Virus record (IMG/VR): IMGVR_UViG_3300048065_000600
Coordinates: 1-26,423 of that record
Length of the DNA stretch: 26,423 bases
DNA from: a virus
Reading direction: 5' to 3' (one strand)
The position numbers and the translations under genes are program-made. The notes beneath the pieces were generated by a model. That model did no database searches and was not told where the DNA came from. It saw nothing but the letters and a program-made list of their open reading frames with translations. Positions 3,001-26,423 of this stretch are shown here, in pieces (positions within the stretch are counted from its first letter, which is position 1; the number at the start of each line of letters is the position of its first letter).

Positions 3001-6000
3001 AATAATCCAACCCTAATACTTTCACCAACTCTATTACCAGAGTTATTTAAAATTGTATCTATTTCAGTGACTATACCTGTAAATCCATTTACACTACCTG
3101 TGACTATTTCATTAAGTGTAAACTGTCCTAGCATATCTACAACTACGCCATCGTCTTTTAATGGAAATGTTATATACGAACTTTCTGCTACTGGATCTAA
3201 AGTTTCTTCAAAGAACGCATAACTGTCAAACGTACTAAATGTTACAGAATTATTTTCTGCTGGTACACTACGCACTGCTTTCCAAAAGTTTTCTTTATAC
3301 TTTACAATATTACCTTGTTTGTATTCACGATCTACTTCGTCTATAGGACCAGATGGATTAAAGTCTCCTTTAATATTATCAACTATATTTCTTGCACTAG
3401 GTGCACCGACTACCATTAACTTGCCATCTGGACTTATTGCTGTATCAGAACCAAATTCCGAATGCATACCAAATCCGCCAGCAGTATTAATTAAACCTTC
3501 TTCGTACACACCATATGATGTTGTATTAATTGGTGTTGTTAATCCAACGTCACTATATATAGAAAATGTATTAACATCAATAACATTTGCAAATACTTTA
3601 ACATTATTAAGTTCTGTTATACCTTTTATTTCTTTAAATCTTAAAGCATCGCCGCTTGTTAATCCGTGACTACTTGCAGTTACTACACCAGGATTAGCAT
3701 TCGTTATAGCTTGAGTAAACACTGCTCGTGTTTCTGGTCTAAGTGTTTCTACTATCTTTAGATCATTGGCAGAACTTGCTCTTTGATAAACATGCACTGC
3801 ACCGTCTTCTGTTTTATTATCTCCTATAGCTACAATAGTGTTGCCGGCATTAGATGCAATGCTACTTGTGAAGTTTTCTTCAGTATCAAATAAAACAGGA
3901 TTTATAATTTCGCTATAATCTGTAAATATTTCTTTTTTCTTTAATACTGCCCAATCTGTTTCTGCTGTACCGTCTAACCAAATATACTGATCAGTTAGTT
4001 TAAATTCTTCTAATATATTATTTGCTTGTGCAAAACTAGCAGCCCTTACACTTCTTAGTTTGCTCATATAACCGTTTAACTGAACATCATCTGGAGTATC
4101 ATCTATAGTAACACTGTCAGGTACAAGACATTCTACAACATTATTTGTAACATTTATAACTAAGTAAAATCCGTCAGCGCCGGCTCCAATTTCTTGTAGT
4201 CCTATTATATCGCCAATAACTAAATTAACAGTTTTGTTAAATGTTATTCTAACTCCTGGAGTGCTTGCTCTATCAATTGCATCTATTGTAGATGCAAATC
4301 CTTCAATCTTTAATACTCTAAAATCTGTAGTAACATGTTGTAGGACATCCCAATCGCCTGTAGTACCTGTAACCCATATGTAATCACTTTGAGATATAGA
4401 ACCAGGCAAACTAACCAGTAGGTCATCTTTAGTTTTTACTTTATAAACAATATCATTTTCGTTTACATATCCTGCACTCTTTAAACCTTTATTAGGAGTA
4501 GTTGTTACTGGAAACGGTTTATGATTATAATCTTTTGGTCTGTAATATACATCGTTAGGAATAATTTTAAGTATATCATCAGTGTCATTTCCTGGTATAC
4601 TGTTTACTAACTCTACAGGTGTAGGATCTATTACAATTTTATCTTCGTCTATAATAAATTCAACTTCTTGGAAATTATCTGTAGCACCGTACTGTCCAGA
4701 CCGTATTGCCCATTCTTCGTAAAACTCAATACTATCTTTATCTGCACTGCTTAGGGCATCAAACAATTTATCAAGAGAATTAATAGTACCTTTATCTTGT
4801 ATCATTCCTTGATAAAATTTATACTGACTAACATCATCATTAATAATGTTTTGTAGATACTGACGTTTTTGATAACCTATCAAATGTTGTGCATGTTTCT
4901 GTTGTTCAACATCGAAGTTATCTGAATCTAAATCATAAAAGTCTGCAAACTGATTAATTCTGTAATCAAAGTTTGGATACATCTTAGCTTCAGGTCGTTC
5001 TTCTAAACGCTCCCAGTCATTATCATTAAATTTTTCTACGCCAGTAAGATCTAACGTGCTTACATAATAGTATTCTTTATACTTTACTAATGATCCGATT
5101 GGATAATCTTTATATGCTATCCAATCTTCTACAATAGCTTCGTCGTATACAAATCCAGGAATATTTAGGCCGCCGGTCCAGTTGTCACTTCGGTAACCTG
5201 TTACTCTAATTCTCTCTTGTCTATACCCTGCTTCTTGGTCGTATATAACATCACCAAATACAGTTTCGTTATCTAAAACAATTGCATGTTCTCTTTGTAT
5301 TAATGGTAATTGAACATGGTATACTCCATCTTCTGTAGTTTTAGGACGGATGCCAAATGTGTTTTTATTATCTCTTATAACATTTGTAAATGGGCGTTCT
5401 AATCTAGTACCGTCTGATTTAAACAAACTATAATCATAAAATGGATCAAAAATATTATCAACTACATGATAATCTTTTGAAAAGCTAATTTCATTTGCAG
5501 CAGGACTTAAACTAATTAAACTATTTTCTGCCCAATTCTGTGTGGACCAAAACAAAAATTCTTTAACACTTAAATCCCAGTTACATACCTGTTTAGTGTT
5601 TTCATCAAAATAATCAAAAGCAAAACCAGTTTGTTGTAATTTACTTTGATATCCTAATAAGAAATCAACTACGTCTTGTACAGTTTTTAATAAACTACCA
5701 TACGGAAGAGTTTTTGTTCTATTTGTAAAGTTCTTTCTTATAATTGCTGTTTTGCCGCCAATAAGTGGTAGTGCAGCAACTCTTTGAAATTTATCATTAT
5801 CAAACTCGGTAGTACTAATATGACTTTCTTTACATCTATAAAACGCTCCGCTAAGTCTTACATTTTGTGCTTTTATGTATTGTTTTCTTTCATCCCATTC
5901 AACAAAACTTTCACTTATACCGCCGATGTTAATACTAGGATCATTACTTTTTTGAATTGCTTCGTGGTATTCAAATATAGATCTTTCTCTGTCGTATCCT

Positions 6001-9000
6001 CTTACTACATAGCCATTAGATTTCTTTTCTATAATTACGCCGCTATAACTTACTGTTTCAACAGGAGAACTACTATTTAAAAATACTTTATAGTTTTCAA
6101 TAGGTACAAACACATTACCTTCATTTAATGGTGTTCTACTATCTAATATTAATTTGAATTTTTCTTTTTCAGTAAAGCCGCCAACTTTTAACGACAACCT
6201 GTTAGTAATATTTTTAAGTGTATTTTGATAAGTTTCATAACTTGCAGTTGTATTACTTGCAAGATAATTATACACGAAGTTTATTAATCCAGAAGTAGAC
6301 AAACGTTCGTCATCTTTTGTAGTATTAGGAAATACTACATCTTCTATTCTCAATGCATTATTAGTTACTGTAGAAACTAAATTTCCTTGCGGATCACGCT
6401 TAATACGACTAATATCAAATCCTATACCTATAACATGAGCAGGTTGATTTAATATCCAACTTAACATAACTGAGAAGGGATATTCTGCTGATTTCCTCCA
6501 TGCACTTTCTACAGGATGGCCGTCGCCGTATTCGTAAAATGAGTTGTTTCCACCGGCAACATAATTTTGTGCATAGTTGCTTTCTAATGGACTTGACAAA
6601 TTTCCGTTTTCATCTACAGGAATATGTTTAGTTAATCCTGGTCTAGCATATTTAGAATTAGTAAATGTTCCTGTAGGAGCCTTAATTAAACCTTTTTCAA
6701 GGTCTTCCCAAAGTACAAAATTATTTCTAGTATACGGTACTGTACCATATTCTGCTTCCCACCATAAAGGCTTAATAGTAAAGCCAAGCATTTCCCAAGG
6801 ATGAGTATGAGGACGATCAGTATCGTATGCTTGAATATAAACTTGTCTCCACCATCCTGGTAAAGGTTTACCTGACGGAGATGACATATTTTTATAGTTG
6901 TAGGTAAAGCTATTTCCTTCTATATATTGATCAGCTGAAGTGTAATCTGGATTTCCAGCTAAAGTAACATACTCAATAAAATCAGCTGTTTGTGATTTAT
7001 CAATATTGTCTTTTGTAAATCCAGTATTTCTATATTCGCCGCCAAGGAAGTCATGTATATCAAGTATGTCAGTTCTATATTCTTGCTTAATATTATTATA
7101 GATTCTAAGTTCTAATTCTAATATTAAATCATCTCGATAATCTTCAAATGCTCTAATTAAACTTCCGTCGTGACCTTGTATCATTTTTACAGGAACAACA
7201 TATGTGTCGTCAATAAAGATTTTTGGTTCGTACTTAGGATATAACCCTAACTTTGTAGGTGTAGCTGGTACGTAACAGCCATCAGTAGATTCATATTCGT
7301 AAATTTCAATTAAGTCACCAGCAGTTTTAGTTGCAGTTACATTTATAAAACCTTCACTGTTAAATGTGTAGTCTTTTCCGTATGTTAATTGTGTACCATT
7401 TAAGTAAACAAGAACTGCTTTTTGACTAAGTTCATTTAGATCAAATATTTCAGATAGAGCATAGTATTGTGTATCGCTTGCTTGTACTGGATGTTCGATT
7501 CTTCTTGAACCTGAGACTGGAATCATGTCTGTAAAATAAAACGGCATGCCATCATTCTTTTCAGAATTTATTACCTCAAAAATCCTATCAACAAATTGTT
7601 TTGTAGGACCGTCATATCCTATTGTATTTGCAGTTTGTAAAAATAATCGTTTAAACTTTGCATATTCTAATCTTGCATATTTTACTGCTTTAATAATGTT
7701 TGCAGATTTGTCTGTAATGTGATACAATGGCAAATTAATTGGACCACTATGTTTTACAAAGCGTGTTCCAAACTCGTCTAACTCACCTAAGTCTCTTAAA
7801 TTACTTGTACCAGGATATACACTACCATCATAATCACGTACATTTTCAACAATAGTGCCAACATGATCAATTACTTCTCCCAAAGTAAAGTTTTGCATAT
7901 CATTGTTTAAAGGATTTCTTTCTAAATTGTGTGCAAGTTCGTAATAGCCATTATCATTTGCTACTGCGGTACTAAAACATTTTAGTTGAATTACGTCATC
8001 TTCTGCAAGAGTATTTAAAAATCTAATATAAGAAATATTGTTTATTTTATCAATTGTATAATGCAATTCTTCTTTTTGTAATATATTATTTAAGAATACT
8101 TTTACTTTTAAATCTTGTAAAAGACCACTATTATCAAACACATCTACTGCAAAATTATTAGTTTGTGTACCTACTACATATTGACGTATTACTGCTTGCT
8201 GGCTTTTCTTAGCAGCCTTTGTCCAACCGCTTTGTGTAGAAAAGTTATCTCTACTTTTAAACTTATGAAGATAAACAGAGTTACTTTTTATAGATTCTAA
8301 AGTATTAAATGGATTTTGTTGGTAAGTGTATGTTTCTTTTATTAATGTAAAATCAAAAAGAATATCACCTATGTTTTCTATATTTTTATAAGTTATACCA
8401 AAGCCAAGTTCGCTATCAACTTCGCCAGTATCGTTTTCAATATAAGAAAAAACTTTATTGCCCAAAAATGAAGTAGCAGGATATTTTGTAGTATCTGCTA
8501 AACTTACGCTAGTATCATCAAATAAATCAAATAAAGGTGCTTGATTTACTTTAGATTTTAATTGAGACTTTTTCCATTCAGATCCGTTATAGAACCAAGA
8601 TGTGCCTCTATAGGTCTGTCCATTAGTTATTAATACTGTTTCATTTTCTAAAGGTGACGTGTCAGTTTCTTCAACTAGACTAATAATTCGACCTCTATCT
8701 TGAACTTGTATAAAATTAACTTTATATATTTTTCCGGTAACAAGTATATCAGTATCAGCTGTAAATAATATTCTCATTCCATCTGCAACGTCAACTCCGT
8801 CAATGTTATAACCAGTTGAACCTTCAATGTCACTAAACACATCTTTTGTAATGACATCAATTAGATCAACATCATTTTTTGCTTGAGTGCCAAAGTTGTA
8901 TAATTTTAAACCTGCTTCAAATTCTATAATTGGTCTAATTGCTCTAGCAGACTGGTCAACTATTGCTGCTTGTCCATTATATGACGCACTTTTTTCTATT

Positions 9001-22516: not shown

Positions 22517-23530
22517 TTGTTTAAAAAAGCAGCAGTATTTACAGATATACACTTTGGACTAAAAGGCAATAGTCGTATACACAACGACGACTGCGAAGAG
22601 TTCATTGACTGGTTTATCGAAACAGCAAACGCTAACGGTTGTGAAACTGGAATATTCTGCGGCGATTGGCATCACAATCGCAACAGTCTTAATCTTACAA
22701 CTATGGATGCAACTATTCGTAGTTTAGAAAAACTAGGTAGTAATTTTAAACAGTTTTTCTTCTTTGACGGTAATCACGACTTGTACTACAAAGACAAGAG
22801 AGATATTAATAGTACTGCCTTTAGCAAGTTTATTCCTGGTATAACATTTGTAGACGAAGTTACTACTGTCGACGATGTTACACTTGTACCTTGGTTAGTA
22901 GGTGACGAATGGAAGCAAATAAGTAAAATCAAAAGTAAGTATATGTTTGGTCACTTTGAGCTTCCTAGTTTCTATATGAATGCTCTTGTAAAAATGCCCG
23001 ATCACGGTGACTTAAAAGTTGAACATTTTAAGCATCAAGAATATGTGTTTAGTGGGCACTTTCATAAACGTCAAAAGCAAGGTGCAGTACATTACATAGG
23101 TAATGCATTCCCACATAACTATGCAGATGCATGGGATGATGATCGAGGAATGATGATACTTGATAGAGAAAATGATCTAGAACCTGAATACATTAATTGG
23201 CCTAACTGTCCTAAGTATCGAACAGTAAAATTGAGCAATTTGTTAGATAATACTGATACAATTATTAAAGACAAAATGTATTTGCGTGTTGAATTAGATC
23301 TTCCTATTAGTTACGAAGAATCAAGTTTCATTAAAGAAACTTTTATTACTCAATACAACTGCCGAGAAATCACACTTATCCCACAAAAACAAATTGAAGA
23401 AATATCAACTAACTTAGATATTTCTGCTTTTGTAAGTGTTGATCAAATTGTAGCAGGTGAAATATCAGAACTTGACACCGAAAGCTACAATAAAAAAATG
23501 TTACTAGATATCTACGATGGATTAGAATGA
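22517..23530 (+). CDS. gp47: Recombination nuclease subunit gp47 (Mre11-type)
   Basis: This is the nuclease of the gp46/gp47 complex, the phage version of Rad50/Mre11. It resects double-strand ends for recombination-dependent replication and helps degrade host DNA. The calcineurin-type phosphoesterase motifs are present in order: D10-x-H12 in FTDIHFG, CGDWHHNR (D50), GNHD (N86, H87), GHFELP, and GHFHKR with its metal-binding histidines. The length of 337 residues is almost that of T4 gp47 (339). The start is TTG at 22517, with GGAG 8 nt upstream; FKKAAVFTDIHFG follows at once, so no later ATG is possible without losing motif I. The stop overlaps the gp46 start by four bases (ATGA), which indicates coupled translation of a 1:1 complex. 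Confidence 0.96.
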   Translation: MFKKAAVFTDIHFGLKGNSRIHNDDCEEFIDWFIETANANGCETGIFCGDWHHNRNSLNLTTMDATIRSLEKLGSNFKQFFFFDGNHDLYYKDKRDINSTAFSKFIPGITFVDEVTTVDDVTLVPWLVGDEWKQISKIKSKYMFGHFELPSFYMNALVKMPDHGDLKVEHFKHQEYVFSGHFHKRQKQGAVHYIGNAFPHNYADAWDDDRGMMILDRENDLEPEYINWPNCPKYRTVKLSNLLDNTDTIIKDKMYLRVELDLPISYEESSFIKETFITQYNCREITLIPQKQIEEISTNLDISAFVSVDQIVAGEISELDTESYNKKMLLDIYDGLE

Positions 23531-25299
23531 TTAAAATTAAAGATCTAACTGTTAAAAACTTTATGAGTGTGGGCAACCAAACCCAAGCCGTAGACTTTAA
23601 CAAAGAACAATTAACGCTCGTTCTTGGTGAAAATTTGGACCAAGGCGGAGATGACAGCGGTAGTAGAAATGGTACTGGTAAAACTACTATCATTAATGCA
23701 CTTTCGTATGCACTATATGGTCAAGCTCTAACAAATATTAAACGTAATAATCTTATTAATAAGACTAATAGCAAAGGTATGCTAGTTACGTTACACTTTG
23801 AAAAAGATGGACAAGATTACCGTATTGAACGCGGAAGATCTCCTAATGTTCTAAAGTTTTATGTAAACGATCAAGAACAAGAAATGACTGACGAAAGTCA
23901 AGGAGACAGTCGCAAGACACAAGAGTTTATAGGTGACTTGTTAGGTATGAGTCATGATATGTTTAAGCATGTTGTAGCACTTAACACTTACACAGAACCC
24001 TTCTTATCAATGCGAGCAAACGATCAACGTGCAATTATTGAACAGTTGTTAGGTATAACAATACTAACTGAAAAAGCAGAACTACTTAAAGATCAAGTTA
24101 AGCAAACAAAAGATGCTATTACTCAAGAAACGCTAAAAATTGAAGCGATACAAACTGCTAATAGTAAAATCGAAACTACTATTACTAGTTTAAAAAGTAA
24201 TCAAAAAGCGTGGTTAGCAAAACGTTCTACAGACACAATAAAACTTCGAGAAGCAATTGATGAATTAGAACATCTAGACATTAATAATGAATTAGAGTTG
24301 CACGAAAAACTATCAAGTTGGACTGAGCATAACAATGCTATTTTGGCTCTTAAAAAAGAATTAAGCACACTTGAACCAGCATTACAACGTGCAGAGAGAT
24401 CTGTAGAAAAAGCACAAAAAGACTCAGAAAATTTAGATCAAGGCACTTGTCATTCTTGTGGACAAGATCTTCCAGCTGATAAAAAAGCAGAGATCGAAGA
24501 ACGTAAAAATAAAGAACTTGAAGATGCTGTATCTTACCAATTAGAAATTGCAGGGAAAGTATCAGACGTTGAGAAAGCACTTATAGAAATAGGTGACATT
24601 AATGGTAAGCCTACAACGTATTACGAAACTGCAAAAGAAGCATACGATCATAGAAATAATGTAGATAGTTTAACACAAGCGTGGACAACGAAGAAAGACG
24701 AACACGATCCTTATCAATCTCAAATTGACGAACTAACAAATTCTGCACTACAAACTGTTAGTTGGGACGTTGTAAACGAACTTACAAGTTTCAAAGATCA
24801 CCAAGAGTTTTTACTTAAACTATTAACAAACAAAGATTCGTTTATACGTAAGAAAATTATCGATCAAAACTTAGCATACCTAAACAACAGACTTACACAC
24901 TATCTTGATAGATTAGGTTTGCCGCATCAAGTTACATTTTTAAATGATCTAAATGTTGAAATTACACAACTAGGTCAAGATTTAGACTTTGACAACTTGT
25001 CAAGAGGCGAACGTAACAGACTTATACTTGGTATGAGTTTTGCGTTTAGAGATGTTTGGGAAAGTTTATATCAAAATGTAAACTTACTGTTTATCGACGA
25101 ACTTATAGATAGTGGAATGGATACTGCAGGTGTTGAAAATGCACTAAGTGTTCTTAAGAAAATGGCTAGAGAACGTGAGAAAAACATATTCCTTATTTCA
25201 CACAAAGATGAGTTAATTGGTAGAGTTAATAATGTAATGAAGGTAGTTAAAGAAAATGGCTTCACTTCATATGCAAATGACATTGACTATGTAGATTAA
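23527..25299 (+). CDS. gp46: Recombination ATPase subunit gp46 (Rad50-type)
   Basis: This is the SMC/Rad50-like ATPase partner of gp47. The Walker A motif is GSRNGTGKT (residues 45-53), preceded by an Asp/Gly-rich insert after LGEN. A coiled-coil region (about 180-440) carries the zinc hook CHSC (C308, C311), through which two complexes dimerise. The ABC signature LSRGERNRL starts at residue 491, Walker B LLFIDE ends at D524/E525, and the ISHKDE H-loop follows near residue 558. At 590 residues it is slightly longer than T4 gp46 (560), and all key residues are intact. The ATG lies within the gp47 stop region (ATGA). Ten bases after its stop the small basic gene begins, so the three genes appear cotranscribed. 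Confidence 0.97.
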   Translation: MIKIKDLTVKNFMSVGNQTQAVDFNKEQLTLVLGENLDQGGDDSGSRNGTGKTTIINALSYALYGQALTNIKRNNLINKTNSKGMLVTLHFEKDGQDYRIERGRSPNVLKFYVNDQEQEMTDESQGDSRKTQEFIGDLLGMSHDMFKHVVALNTYTEPFLSMRANDQRAIIEQLLGITILTEKAELLKDQVKQTKDAITQETLKIEAIQTANSKIETTITSLKSNQKAWLAKRSTDTIKLREAIDELEHLDINNELELHEKLSSWTEHNNAILALKKELSTLEPALQRAERSVEKAQKDSENLDQGTCHSCGQDLPADKKAEIEERKNKELEDAVSYQLEIAGKVSDVEKALIEIGDINGKPTTYYETAKEAYDHRNNVDSLTQAWTTKKDEHDPYQSQIDELTNSALQTVSWDVVNELTSFKDHQEFLLKLLTNKDSFIRKKIIDQNLAYLNNRLTHYLDRLGLPHQVTFLNDLNVEITQLGQDLDFDNLSRGERNRLILGMSFAFRDVWESLYQNVNLLFIDELIDSGMDTAGVENALSVLKKMAREREKNIFLISHKDELIGRVNNVMKVVKENGFTSYANDIDYVD

Positions 25300-25309
25300 A
25301 GGTGTTATA

Positions 25310-25522
25310 ATGGAAGATGATATACATGACAAATTAGTTGAGGCATATCTTGAATATTTTAAGGCAAACGAAAAATTTGAACTACGGAATAGTGTAAGAA
25401 CGCATCGATATGTTAGAAAATGTCTACGTGAAATACGTAAACTAGCAAAAATTCGTTCAGAGCAAATACACGTTCACCATAATACTAATAGGCGCACCAC
25501 AAAGGAAGGCAAAAAGTCCTAA
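25310..25522 (+). CDS. Small basic helical protein, unknown function
   Basis: The 70-residue product has an acidic start (MEDDIHDKLVEAYLEYF) and then a strongly basic run (RTHRYVRKCLREIRKLAKIR) with alternating Arg/Lys and Leu/Ile, the look of one or two amphipathic helices. The tail is polar and basic (HHNTNRRTTKEGKKS). AAAGGTG lies upstream of ATG 25310, 10 nt after gp46. In T4 the corresponding slot between 46 and 45 holds rpbA, but I see no likeness. Small basic proteins next to gp46 occur in marine T4-like phages. DNA or RNA binding is plausible from charge alone; no function is claimed. Confidence 0.7.
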   Translation: MEDDIHDKLVEAYLEYFKANEKFELRNSVRTHRYVRKCLREIRKLAKIRSEQIHVHHNTNRRTTKEGKKS

Positions 25523-25539
25523 GCATACATATATAATTG

Positions 25540-25989
25540 ATGCAGTGGACTTATGAAGGCAAAGAAATAGACAAAATACCAGATGAATACGAAGGATTTG
25601 TTTATCTTATTACTAATACCACTACAGGCCAAAAATACATAGGTAAAAAACTAGCAAAGTTTAAAACTACCAAGCCACCACTCAAAGGCAAGAAAAACAA
25701 AAGACGAGGCTACAAAGAAAGCGATTGGAAGACTTACTACGGTAGTTCAGACAGATTAAACGCAGATGTAGCCGAACTAGGCGAAGAACACTTCACAAGA
25801 GAAATATTATACCTATGTAAAGGTAGGGGCGAAATGTCCTACATAGAGGCAAGAGAACAGTTTGATAGGCGTGTACTTGAAACAGATGAATACTACAACG
25901 GTATCATTAATGTTAGAGTAGGCGGATCAGACAAACTCAAACAGGCATTGCTAGAACACTCCATCAAGGCAAAACAATCTAACACATAA
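25540..25989 (+). CDS. GIY-YIG family endonuclease, probably free-standing homing-type
   Basis: A 149-residue protein with a GIY-YIG nuclease core. The two strand motifs are VYL (21-23) and YIG (33-35); the glutamate candidate is E103 in SYIEARE, and N124 in IINVRVGG fits the late asparagine. Between them is a Lys/Arg-rich insert (KKLAKFKTTKPPLKGKKNKRR) and WKTYYGSS. The usual Arg after YIG is not in its normal place; lysines stand there, so activity is uncertain. The ATG at 25540 is preferred to TTG 25537. Neither has a recognisable ribosome site, so translation may depend on the gene ending 17 nt upstream. G+C is about 38% by hand count, above the roughly 32% of sampled gp46, and Arg codons are mainly AGA/AGG. 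It lies where T4 proceeds from 46 toward 45, which suggests insertion. Confidence 0.82.
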   Translation: MQWTYEGKEIDKIPDEYEGFVYLITNTTTGQKYIGKKLAKFKTTKPPLKGKKNKRRGYKESDWKTYYGSSDRLNADVAELGEEHFTREILYLCKGRGEMSYIEAREQFDRRVLETDEYYNGIINVRVGGSDKLKQALLEHSIKAKQSNT

Positions 25990-26330
25990 GGTTGGCGGGC
26001 CAGATTAATTTACCGCTGTGGAAAAAGCTCTCGTATAGAAGCACACGTAACACGTTGAGTCGCGTCTGGTAATAAGGCGTTGGATTGACGTAGATTGAAT
26101 GTTAGCAATTGAAAAACACAACACAGTTCATAAAAACTCTTTAGCAATAGGAACGAAGCGAGAGGTAGCTGGAAACAGCGATGTCGACGTAGGTTGGGAA
26201 AGGTCAGAGCCCATTGAACTAAGTGTATAAACAATTACCTACTTCCAATGTCTCGGCTGGTGCGACTCACATGAAGCGTATTTTGAGATTAGATGGGACC
26301 GTAACAGGTTCCGTCTGACTGAAACAATCT
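25990..26330 (+). ncRNA. Candidate structured RNA of unknown family
   Basis: About 340 bases directly after the endonuclease stop have frequent stops in the plus frames and G+C of about 44% (150 of 340 by hand count), against about 23% in the 93 bases after it. Many helices can be drawn: 26056-26063 with 26262-26269 (8 bp, perfect); 26189-26194 with 26237-26242 (6 bp) enclosing 26195-26198 with 26210-26213; a GAAA-capped hairpin at 26168-26179; a 10-bp hairpin at 26291-26316; and 25994-25998 with 26013-26017. A perfect 6-bp pairing (26028-26033 with 26159-26164) crosses the 8-bp helix and would make a pseudoknot. I recognise no tRNA, tmRNA, RNase P or intron core. Strand and boundaries are uncertain. 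Confidence 0.5.
26291..26316 (+). other. 10-bp hairpin with 6-base loop
   Basis: The arms AGATGGGACC and GGTTCCGTCT pair over ten positions (two G-U pairs) around the loop GTAACA. No T-run follows, so it is not an intrinsic terminator. It is more likely a structural element at the 3' side of the candidate RNA. Confidence 0.6.
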
Positions 26331-26344
26331 ACATGAAACTTAAA

Positions 26345-26366
26345 CATTATTACATTCGTAATAATG
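26345..26366 (+). terminator. AT-rich 9-bp hairpin, possible weak terminator
   Basis: CATTATTAC and GTAATAATG form a perfect 9-bp stem around the loop ATTC. It is followed by CATTTGTAT, not a clean T-run, so termination would be inefficient. It sits just after the G+C-enriched RNA-like block and could mark its end, or simply shape the leader of the next gene. Confidence 0.3.
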
Positions 26367-26380
26367 CATTTGTATCATAT

Positions 26381-26386
26381 TATAAT
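26381..26386 (+). promoter_or_regulatory. TATAAT box, possible promoter for the next gene
   Basis: A perfect -10 hexamer lies in the AT-rich tail of the window, but the position 17 nt upstream (GTAATA) does not resemble a -35 box. In T4 order the next gene would be the sliding clamp 45. The stretch from 26331 to 26423 has no gene; apart from this box and the hairpin before it, I see nothing else there. Confidence 0.3.
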
Positions 26387-26423
26387 CACTTCTATCAAAC
26401 ATAATTAAATACGAAGTAAGTAG

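Follow-up and report, generated by a model that had tools for sequence, protein, structure and literature searches.

Which element occupies the stretch that follows gp46 and a nuclease gene in this phage DNA, and does it belong to the nuclease? The window analysed here, i.e. the whole stretch of 26,423 bases, is an entire IMG/VR record of an uncultured marine virus of bacteria, and the carrier is an uncultured marine myovirus. An earlier note on the same DNA had suspected a structured RNA behind a GIY-YIG endonuclease gene and had read the two as a mobile unit.

The gp46 locus and its neighbours

The main features of the locus are the following:

22517-23530: gp47
23527-25299: gp46
25310-25522, plus strand: small basic gene of 70 aa; syntenic, downstream of gp46 and upstream of the nuclease gene
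25540 (ATG)-25989 (TAA), plus strand: complete SegE-like GIY-YIG endonuclease gene (149 aa; PF19835)
25984-26340, plus strand: structured non-coding RNA core of about 357 nt (51-sequence alignment, 64-pair structure)

The relatives of the locus are mostly metagenome contigs, and in this clade the order is constant: gp55, gp47, gp46, the small gene, the nuclease, the RNA, a variable late gene, the baseplate hub on the opposite strand, a structural protein and the T4-type portal. The earlier note had spoken of a 46-45 interval, a name that is inapt because the genes next in line in the relatives are the variable late gene, the hub and the portal just mentioned. The small basic gene, which gave no match in Pfam and PHROG searches, belongs to cluster C2 and is present in 79 of the loci listed.

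Extra genes are occasionally inserted at the locus, and nuclease and RNA remain there. In several relatives a hemC-like porphobilinogen deaminase gene (PF01379, 211 bits; cluster C14) lies between gp46 and the small gene, e.g. at 5424-6164 on the minus strand of L110; it occurs in about eight loci, among them L079, L111, L141, L153, L169, L173 and L183. A tryptophan-halogenase-like gene (PF04820, phrog_2928) separates the small gene from the nuclease in L099 (1490-3121) and also in L132.

The nuclease matched the Pfam profile PF19835 (SegE_GIY-YIG) with 120.9 bits (cut-off 25) over positions 7-123 of 123, i.e. over the full domain, in agreement with its earlier designation as a GIY-YIG endonuclease. 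By family it is a SegE-like, homing-type nuclease with putative cleavage or homing activity. Relatives are present in 814 cultured phage records, the closest cultured one being the nuclease of Melnitz. Many of the matched phage records repeat the name 'NAD synthetase', which PHROGs gives to the SegE-like GIY-YIG family phrog_447; this label looks like a misannotation.

A structured RNA gene with a pseudoknot

A structured non-coding RNA does lie beside the nuclease, as the earlier note had proposed; its start was moved to approximately position 25984, at the 5' motif ACATAAGG, inside the stop region of the nuclease gene, whose stop codon falls within this conserved motif. The shift in G+C content is also as estimated from the first inspection, with 33.7% in gp46, 37.7% in the nuclease gene, 43.4% in 25984-26340 and 21.7% in the sequence after the RNA (34.3% in the whole window). 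The shift alone is weak evidence, since about 2% of the 357-nt windows are equally rich. The plus strand folds with -99.1 kcal/mol and beats shuffled sequences (z = -2.5, 0 of 100), while the minus strand folds no better than shuffles (z = -0.1). The block was also considered as a coding region and rejected: its ORFs are short (43 aa on the plus and 74 aa on the minus strand) and would be broken by the indels that are frequent in relatives. Because of these indels and the pairing pattern described below, we regard it as an RNA and not as a coding region. It is single-copy: each of the 15 large contigs in which it occurs has exactly one.

What decided the matter was the comparison of relatives, and it is for this reason, beyond G+C content or fold, that we accept a structured RNA gene. 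The core word GGGAAAGGTCAGAGCCCATTG (26196-26216) is present in at least 118 viral loci. When 51 diverse copies were aligned, a model of 64 pairs including a pseudoknot had 92.6% of its cells paired, compared to 85.4% with shuffled partners and at most 40% with slid partners. Changes on both sides were found in 27 pairs (16 with partners shuffled, at most 10 with partners slid), and the number of cells with double changes was 243 (79 and at most 29, respectively). The covariation score of this alignment is 0.259 versus 0.132 in shuffles. The suspicion of a structured RNA is thus borne out by compensatory changes.

In the model the RNA is closed by a 5'-3' helix and contains several hairpins as well as a long-range pseudoknot, whose strands are the following:

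26120-26130, plus strand: 5' strand of the pseudoknot (AGTTCA, with ACAC 5' of it), pairs with 26215-26226
26215-26226, plus strand: 3' strand of the pseudoknot, pairs with 26120-26130

The pseudoknot columns 257-261 and 466-470 are paired in every sequence, with the swaps GC/AU, UA/CG and AU/UA/GC. The outer four pairs of the pseudoknot (26120-26123 with 26223-26226) found no support in the 51-sequence alignment. A tree-based null, for which we used our own script and whose effective sample size was only some 30 sequences, was exceeded at an E value of about 0.02 by the pseudoknot pair 26128-26217 and by the P4 pairs 26053-26090 and 26054-26089.

These data also bear on the question whether the block works as DNA, namely as an origin or recombination site, and not as RNA. 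Direct repeats and hairpins are present, and the recombination genes gp46/47 adjoin the block. However, the compensatory changes keep pairs of the RNA type, G-U among them, and only one strand folds better than its shuffles, which makes a function at the DNA level very unlikely.

The periphery of the RNA is variable. The stem between the GGAACGA motif and GATGTCGACG (approximately 26165-26182) is swapped among otherwise near-identical RNAs, and the swapped-in stems, unrelated in sequence, are either hairpins with GAAA-type tetraloops or rich in AT and as long as about 150 nt. The repeat-hairpin block is likewise exchanged as a module between RNAs. Judged from its sequence, the RNA is a recombination mosaic. 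In many loci the metagenome contigs stop inside the RNA, 75-148 nt past the nuclease stop, probably because conserved RNA stretches break the assembly.

A search of the block with Rfam covariance models, which the earlier note had recommended, matched no family. This holds for the whole window at the gathering threshold and for 25500-26423 at E values up to 10, and five divergent members searched at E values up to 1 gave no match either. The Rfam models of group I and group II introns, RNase P, GOLLD, ROOL, OLE and HEARO were unmatched in the window and in these five members. ARAGORN and Rfam detected no tRNA or tmRNA in the window, and neither a tRNA-like domain nor a tag reading frame was found.

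Twin 7-nt repeats change in concert

Near its 3' end the RNA contains two direct repeats flanking a hairpin:

26269-26275, plus strand: first 7-nt repeat ACATGAA, after ACTC
26292-26315, plus strand: hairpin GATGGGACC/GGTTCCGTC between the repeats (9 pairs, 98.9% of cells paired)
26331-26337, plus strand: second 7-nt repeat ACATGAA, after ATCT

The layout is ACTC-N7, hairpin, ATCT-N7, with a distance of 62 nt between the repeats in the window, and the second 7-mer is located directly 3' of the 3' strand of the closing helix. While ACTC and ATCT are invariant, N7 occurs in 10 different sequences, and still 157 of the 160 window-family RNAs have the same N7 in both places. On a tree calculated with the N7 columns masked, each copy needs at least 14 changes and the two taken jointly need 15, and therefore nearly every change struck both copies. 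The agreement between the copies ceases past position 7.

Since the repeats are direct, they cannot pair with each other, and no consistent complement of the 7-mers was found within the RNA. Neither N7 nor its complement is enriched in 12 contigs, and a target of the 7-mers at gene starts common to the phages was not detected. The idea that the 7-mers are complementary to a tRNA anticodon loop was dropped, because position 37 would need a G after U36, which runs against general tRNA knowledge. Based on the concerted change and on the lack of a complement inside the RNA, we propose that the twin 7-mers are exposed recognition elements for one shared partner, which may be an RNA or a dimeric protein. 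In the simplest reading, both copies would meet this same partner outside the RNA.

Alternatively, the RNA could be a ribozyme or another self-processing RNA, in which the two YCY/N7 sites would be sites of cleavage or joining. Its conserved unpaired stretches and the pseudoknot are ribozyme-like, and the position of the 7-mers, behind invariant tetranucleotides and in the second case right after the closing helix, would also suit this possibility. However, known introns, RNase P and small ribozymes are unmatched in Rfam and a catalytic core was not recognised, so that we consider self-processing unlikely.

The RNA and the nuclease occur independently

At first sight nuclease and RNA form a pair. 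In each of the best 80 nuclease relatives from viral contigs (89-96% identical), the nuclease stop is directly followed by the conserved 5' end of the RNA, with the contig ending within the RNA in some of them, and the two are adjacent in 102 of the 118 RNA loci listed. The gap between the nuclease stop and the RNA is 0 in most loci and 25 to about 320 nt in others, some of which have an extra small gene. In a different phage (L107, L113 and L197-L199) the RNA was found without a GIY-YIG gene of the same family nearby, and here it is located upstream of terminase genes, where the contig extends far enough. The motif ACATAAGG is retained in this second phage, which assigns it to the RNA rather than to the reading frame of the nuclease. 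Conversely, the nucleases of Melnitz and of L266-L283, which are located away from gp46, have no such RNA nearby. As far as blastn (with five blocks) and profiles (in L201-L205) can see, the RNA is absent from cultured phage records, and GTDB representative contigs of bacterial genomes contain no exact match to its core. A match in L200 was discarded as a chance match in coding sequence.

The mobile unit of the earlier note, i.e. a homing cassette made of nuclease and RNA, would be in line with the homing-type family of the nuclease and with the frequent adjacency. On the other hand, the locus is fixed at a single syntenic spot in the clade, joint movement was not seen, the gap is variable, and since RNA and nuclease each occur alone, a unit of the two is unsupported. 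Occurrence of either of the two without the other had been named in advance as a finding against such a unit; we found both cases, although clade members nearly always have RNA and nuclease side by side. We therefore give the homing cassette little credence and regard it as largely refuted.

For the bolder suggestion of a nuclease that makes use of the RNA, processes it or protects it, we found no evidence. One could imagine the RNA as a guide or cofactor of the nuclease, given the adjacency in almost all clade members and the overlap of the nuclease stop with the 5' motif of the RNA. This is hardly credible in view of the second phage family, which has the RNA without a nuclease of the same family nearby, and of the nuclease family, which is widespread without the RNA. 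Most likely, the adjacent nuclease is a neighbour of the RNA and not a component.

Proposed transcription of the RNA

Two features outside of the RNA may be relevant for its transcription:

25283-25311, plus strand: candidate sigma-70-like promoter where gp46 ends, TTGACT-17-TATAAT, TG in front of the second hexamer (11 of 12 positions agree with the consensus)
26346-26367, plus strand: AT-rich 3' hairpin CATTATTAC...GTAATAATG, read from the sequence; terminator-like, lacks a good T run, not called by a terminator scan

The first is a candidate promoter for the small gene, the nuclease and the RNA; it was called by a consensus scan only, in which sites with 9 of 12 positions are expected by chance. 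In relatives, consensus promoters were found just upstream of the RNA, with 12 of 12 positions in L113 and L178 and 11 of 12 in L118 and L184. In the spacer of L118, L178 and L184 this is TTGACA-17-TATAAT or TATACT (11-12 of 12), approximately 90-100 nt before the RNA. A 930-nt coding stretch of gp46 served as control, and there the score was never above 10 of 12.

An AT-rich hairpin similar to that at 26346-26367 follows the RNA in most relatives. Between the RNA and the late promoter, their 3' flank (e.g. in L004, L023 and L081) mostly contains two hairpins, the conserved AGTTTGAGCG-TTA-GCGAAAAC and a second AT-rich one. The late-promoter-like motif (A/C/T)ATAAATA is present about 120 nt past the RNA in 103 of 149 loci, compared to 0 of 107 in a gp46 coding control, and the downstream late genes therefore seem to be separately transcribed. 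We suggest that the RNA is made early, together with the gp46 operon or shortly after it, or else from a sigma-70 promoter of its own, and that the transcript may end near the AT-rich hairpin.

In most relatives a late gene lies downstream of the RNA, and a role as cis-acting leader of this gene, i.e. as a riboswitch or attenuator, has to be considered. Such a role is at odds with the late-promoter-like motif past the RNA and with the nature of the downstream genes, which fall in several unrelated clusters; moreover, at some loci the gene called next lies on the other strand, and an unrelated gene follows the RNA in the second phage family. We thus consider a cis-acting leader improbable. As signs of action in cis are absent, we infer that the RNA acts in trans during infection, as RNA or as an RNA-protein particle.

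A wider family and its relation to RF01718

With the Melnitz nuclease as query, more distant loci adjoining gp46 were detected, many of which carry a block of 400-600 nt beyond the reach of nucleotide profiles. A direct repeat of at least 7 nt flanking a hairpin is present in 17 of 19 diverged blocks; among shuffles the count was 29 of 380, and among coding controls 2 of 18. Two of the 17 blocks, L308 and L310, have another pair as the automatic match, and AGATAAT twins are visible there by eye. In L308, L310, L328 and L333 the Rfam family RF01718 (Polynucleobacter-1) matched with 63-108 bits (gathering score 37), just after the gp46-linked nuclease. The window RNA itself gave no match to RF01718 even at E values up to 10 and did not reach the 37-bit gathering score. 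A covariance model of the 3' half of the window family found the bridging members L323 (1e-11) and L345 (5e-8), and after one iteration this model (R2) had as its best hits L308, L320, L342, L328, L333, L327 and L310 in the expected place at E values of 0.007-0.09, which are rough and individually marginal. The model of the 5' half failed to find the RF01718 region, i.e. homology of the 5' halves was not detected. From these comparisons, RF01718 is probably a distant relative, which would share the 3' half, and not the window RNA's own family.

A word match derived from RF01718 in L346 lies within coding sequence and was rejected. In a subgroup consisting of L285, L300, L331 and L336, the 3' half is shared and the 5' half (AAGGACACTGTTTGATC...GTCCAACAGGCTGTATGCTACGAAAACCCC) is shorter and looks unrelated.

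RF01718 was described from Burkholderiales and from fresh water and estuary, with no function assigned (Weinberg et al. 2010, PMC2864571). The phage loci that match it occupy the same spot as the window RNA, and the blocks there carry twin repeats. Unlike the window RNA, the RF01718 model spans only 141 nt of the 5' part, without a pseudoknot or twin repeats.

These relations may hint that large phage RNAs of this kind form a new superfamily, in which RF01718 would be one fragment and the identical 7-nt twins beside the closing helix would be freely re-programmable. Pairing of the 5' strand might alternate between a site before copy 1 and one before copy 2, so that the RNA would have two states and would recognise or process a single, phage-specific partner. 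We know of no precedent for RNA recognition by such twin 7-mers, and we put this extended reading forward tentatively, as a rather doubtful one.

Proposed role of the RNA and comparison with known systems

On balance, we favour the explanation that 25984-26340 is a single-copy, stand-alone structured RNA which acts in trans early in infection and whose twin 7-mers recognise one partner; we hold this for somewhat probable. Since the RNA is large, conserved and single-copy across the clade and is common to an unrelated phage, it very likely does something important in infection. Our analysis links the orphan Rfam family RF01718 to phages and to a fixed gene neighbourhood, and the co-varying twin 7-mers provide a sharp, testable handle on function.

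Large RNAs of the GOLLD, ROOL and OLE type are in part phage-borne. The window RNA is shorter than GOLLD, ROOL and OLE and has no Rfam match, but like these (PMC12286853) it is a large, intricate and conserved non-coding RNA. Another system for comparison is the two-piece tmRNA encoded by Melnitz (PMC9004378). According to ARAGORN and Rfam the window differs from Melnitz in having no tmRNA; nevertheless, in both cases a structured RNA gene is present in a marine myovirus, and it is Melnitz that has the closest cultured relative of the window nuclease.
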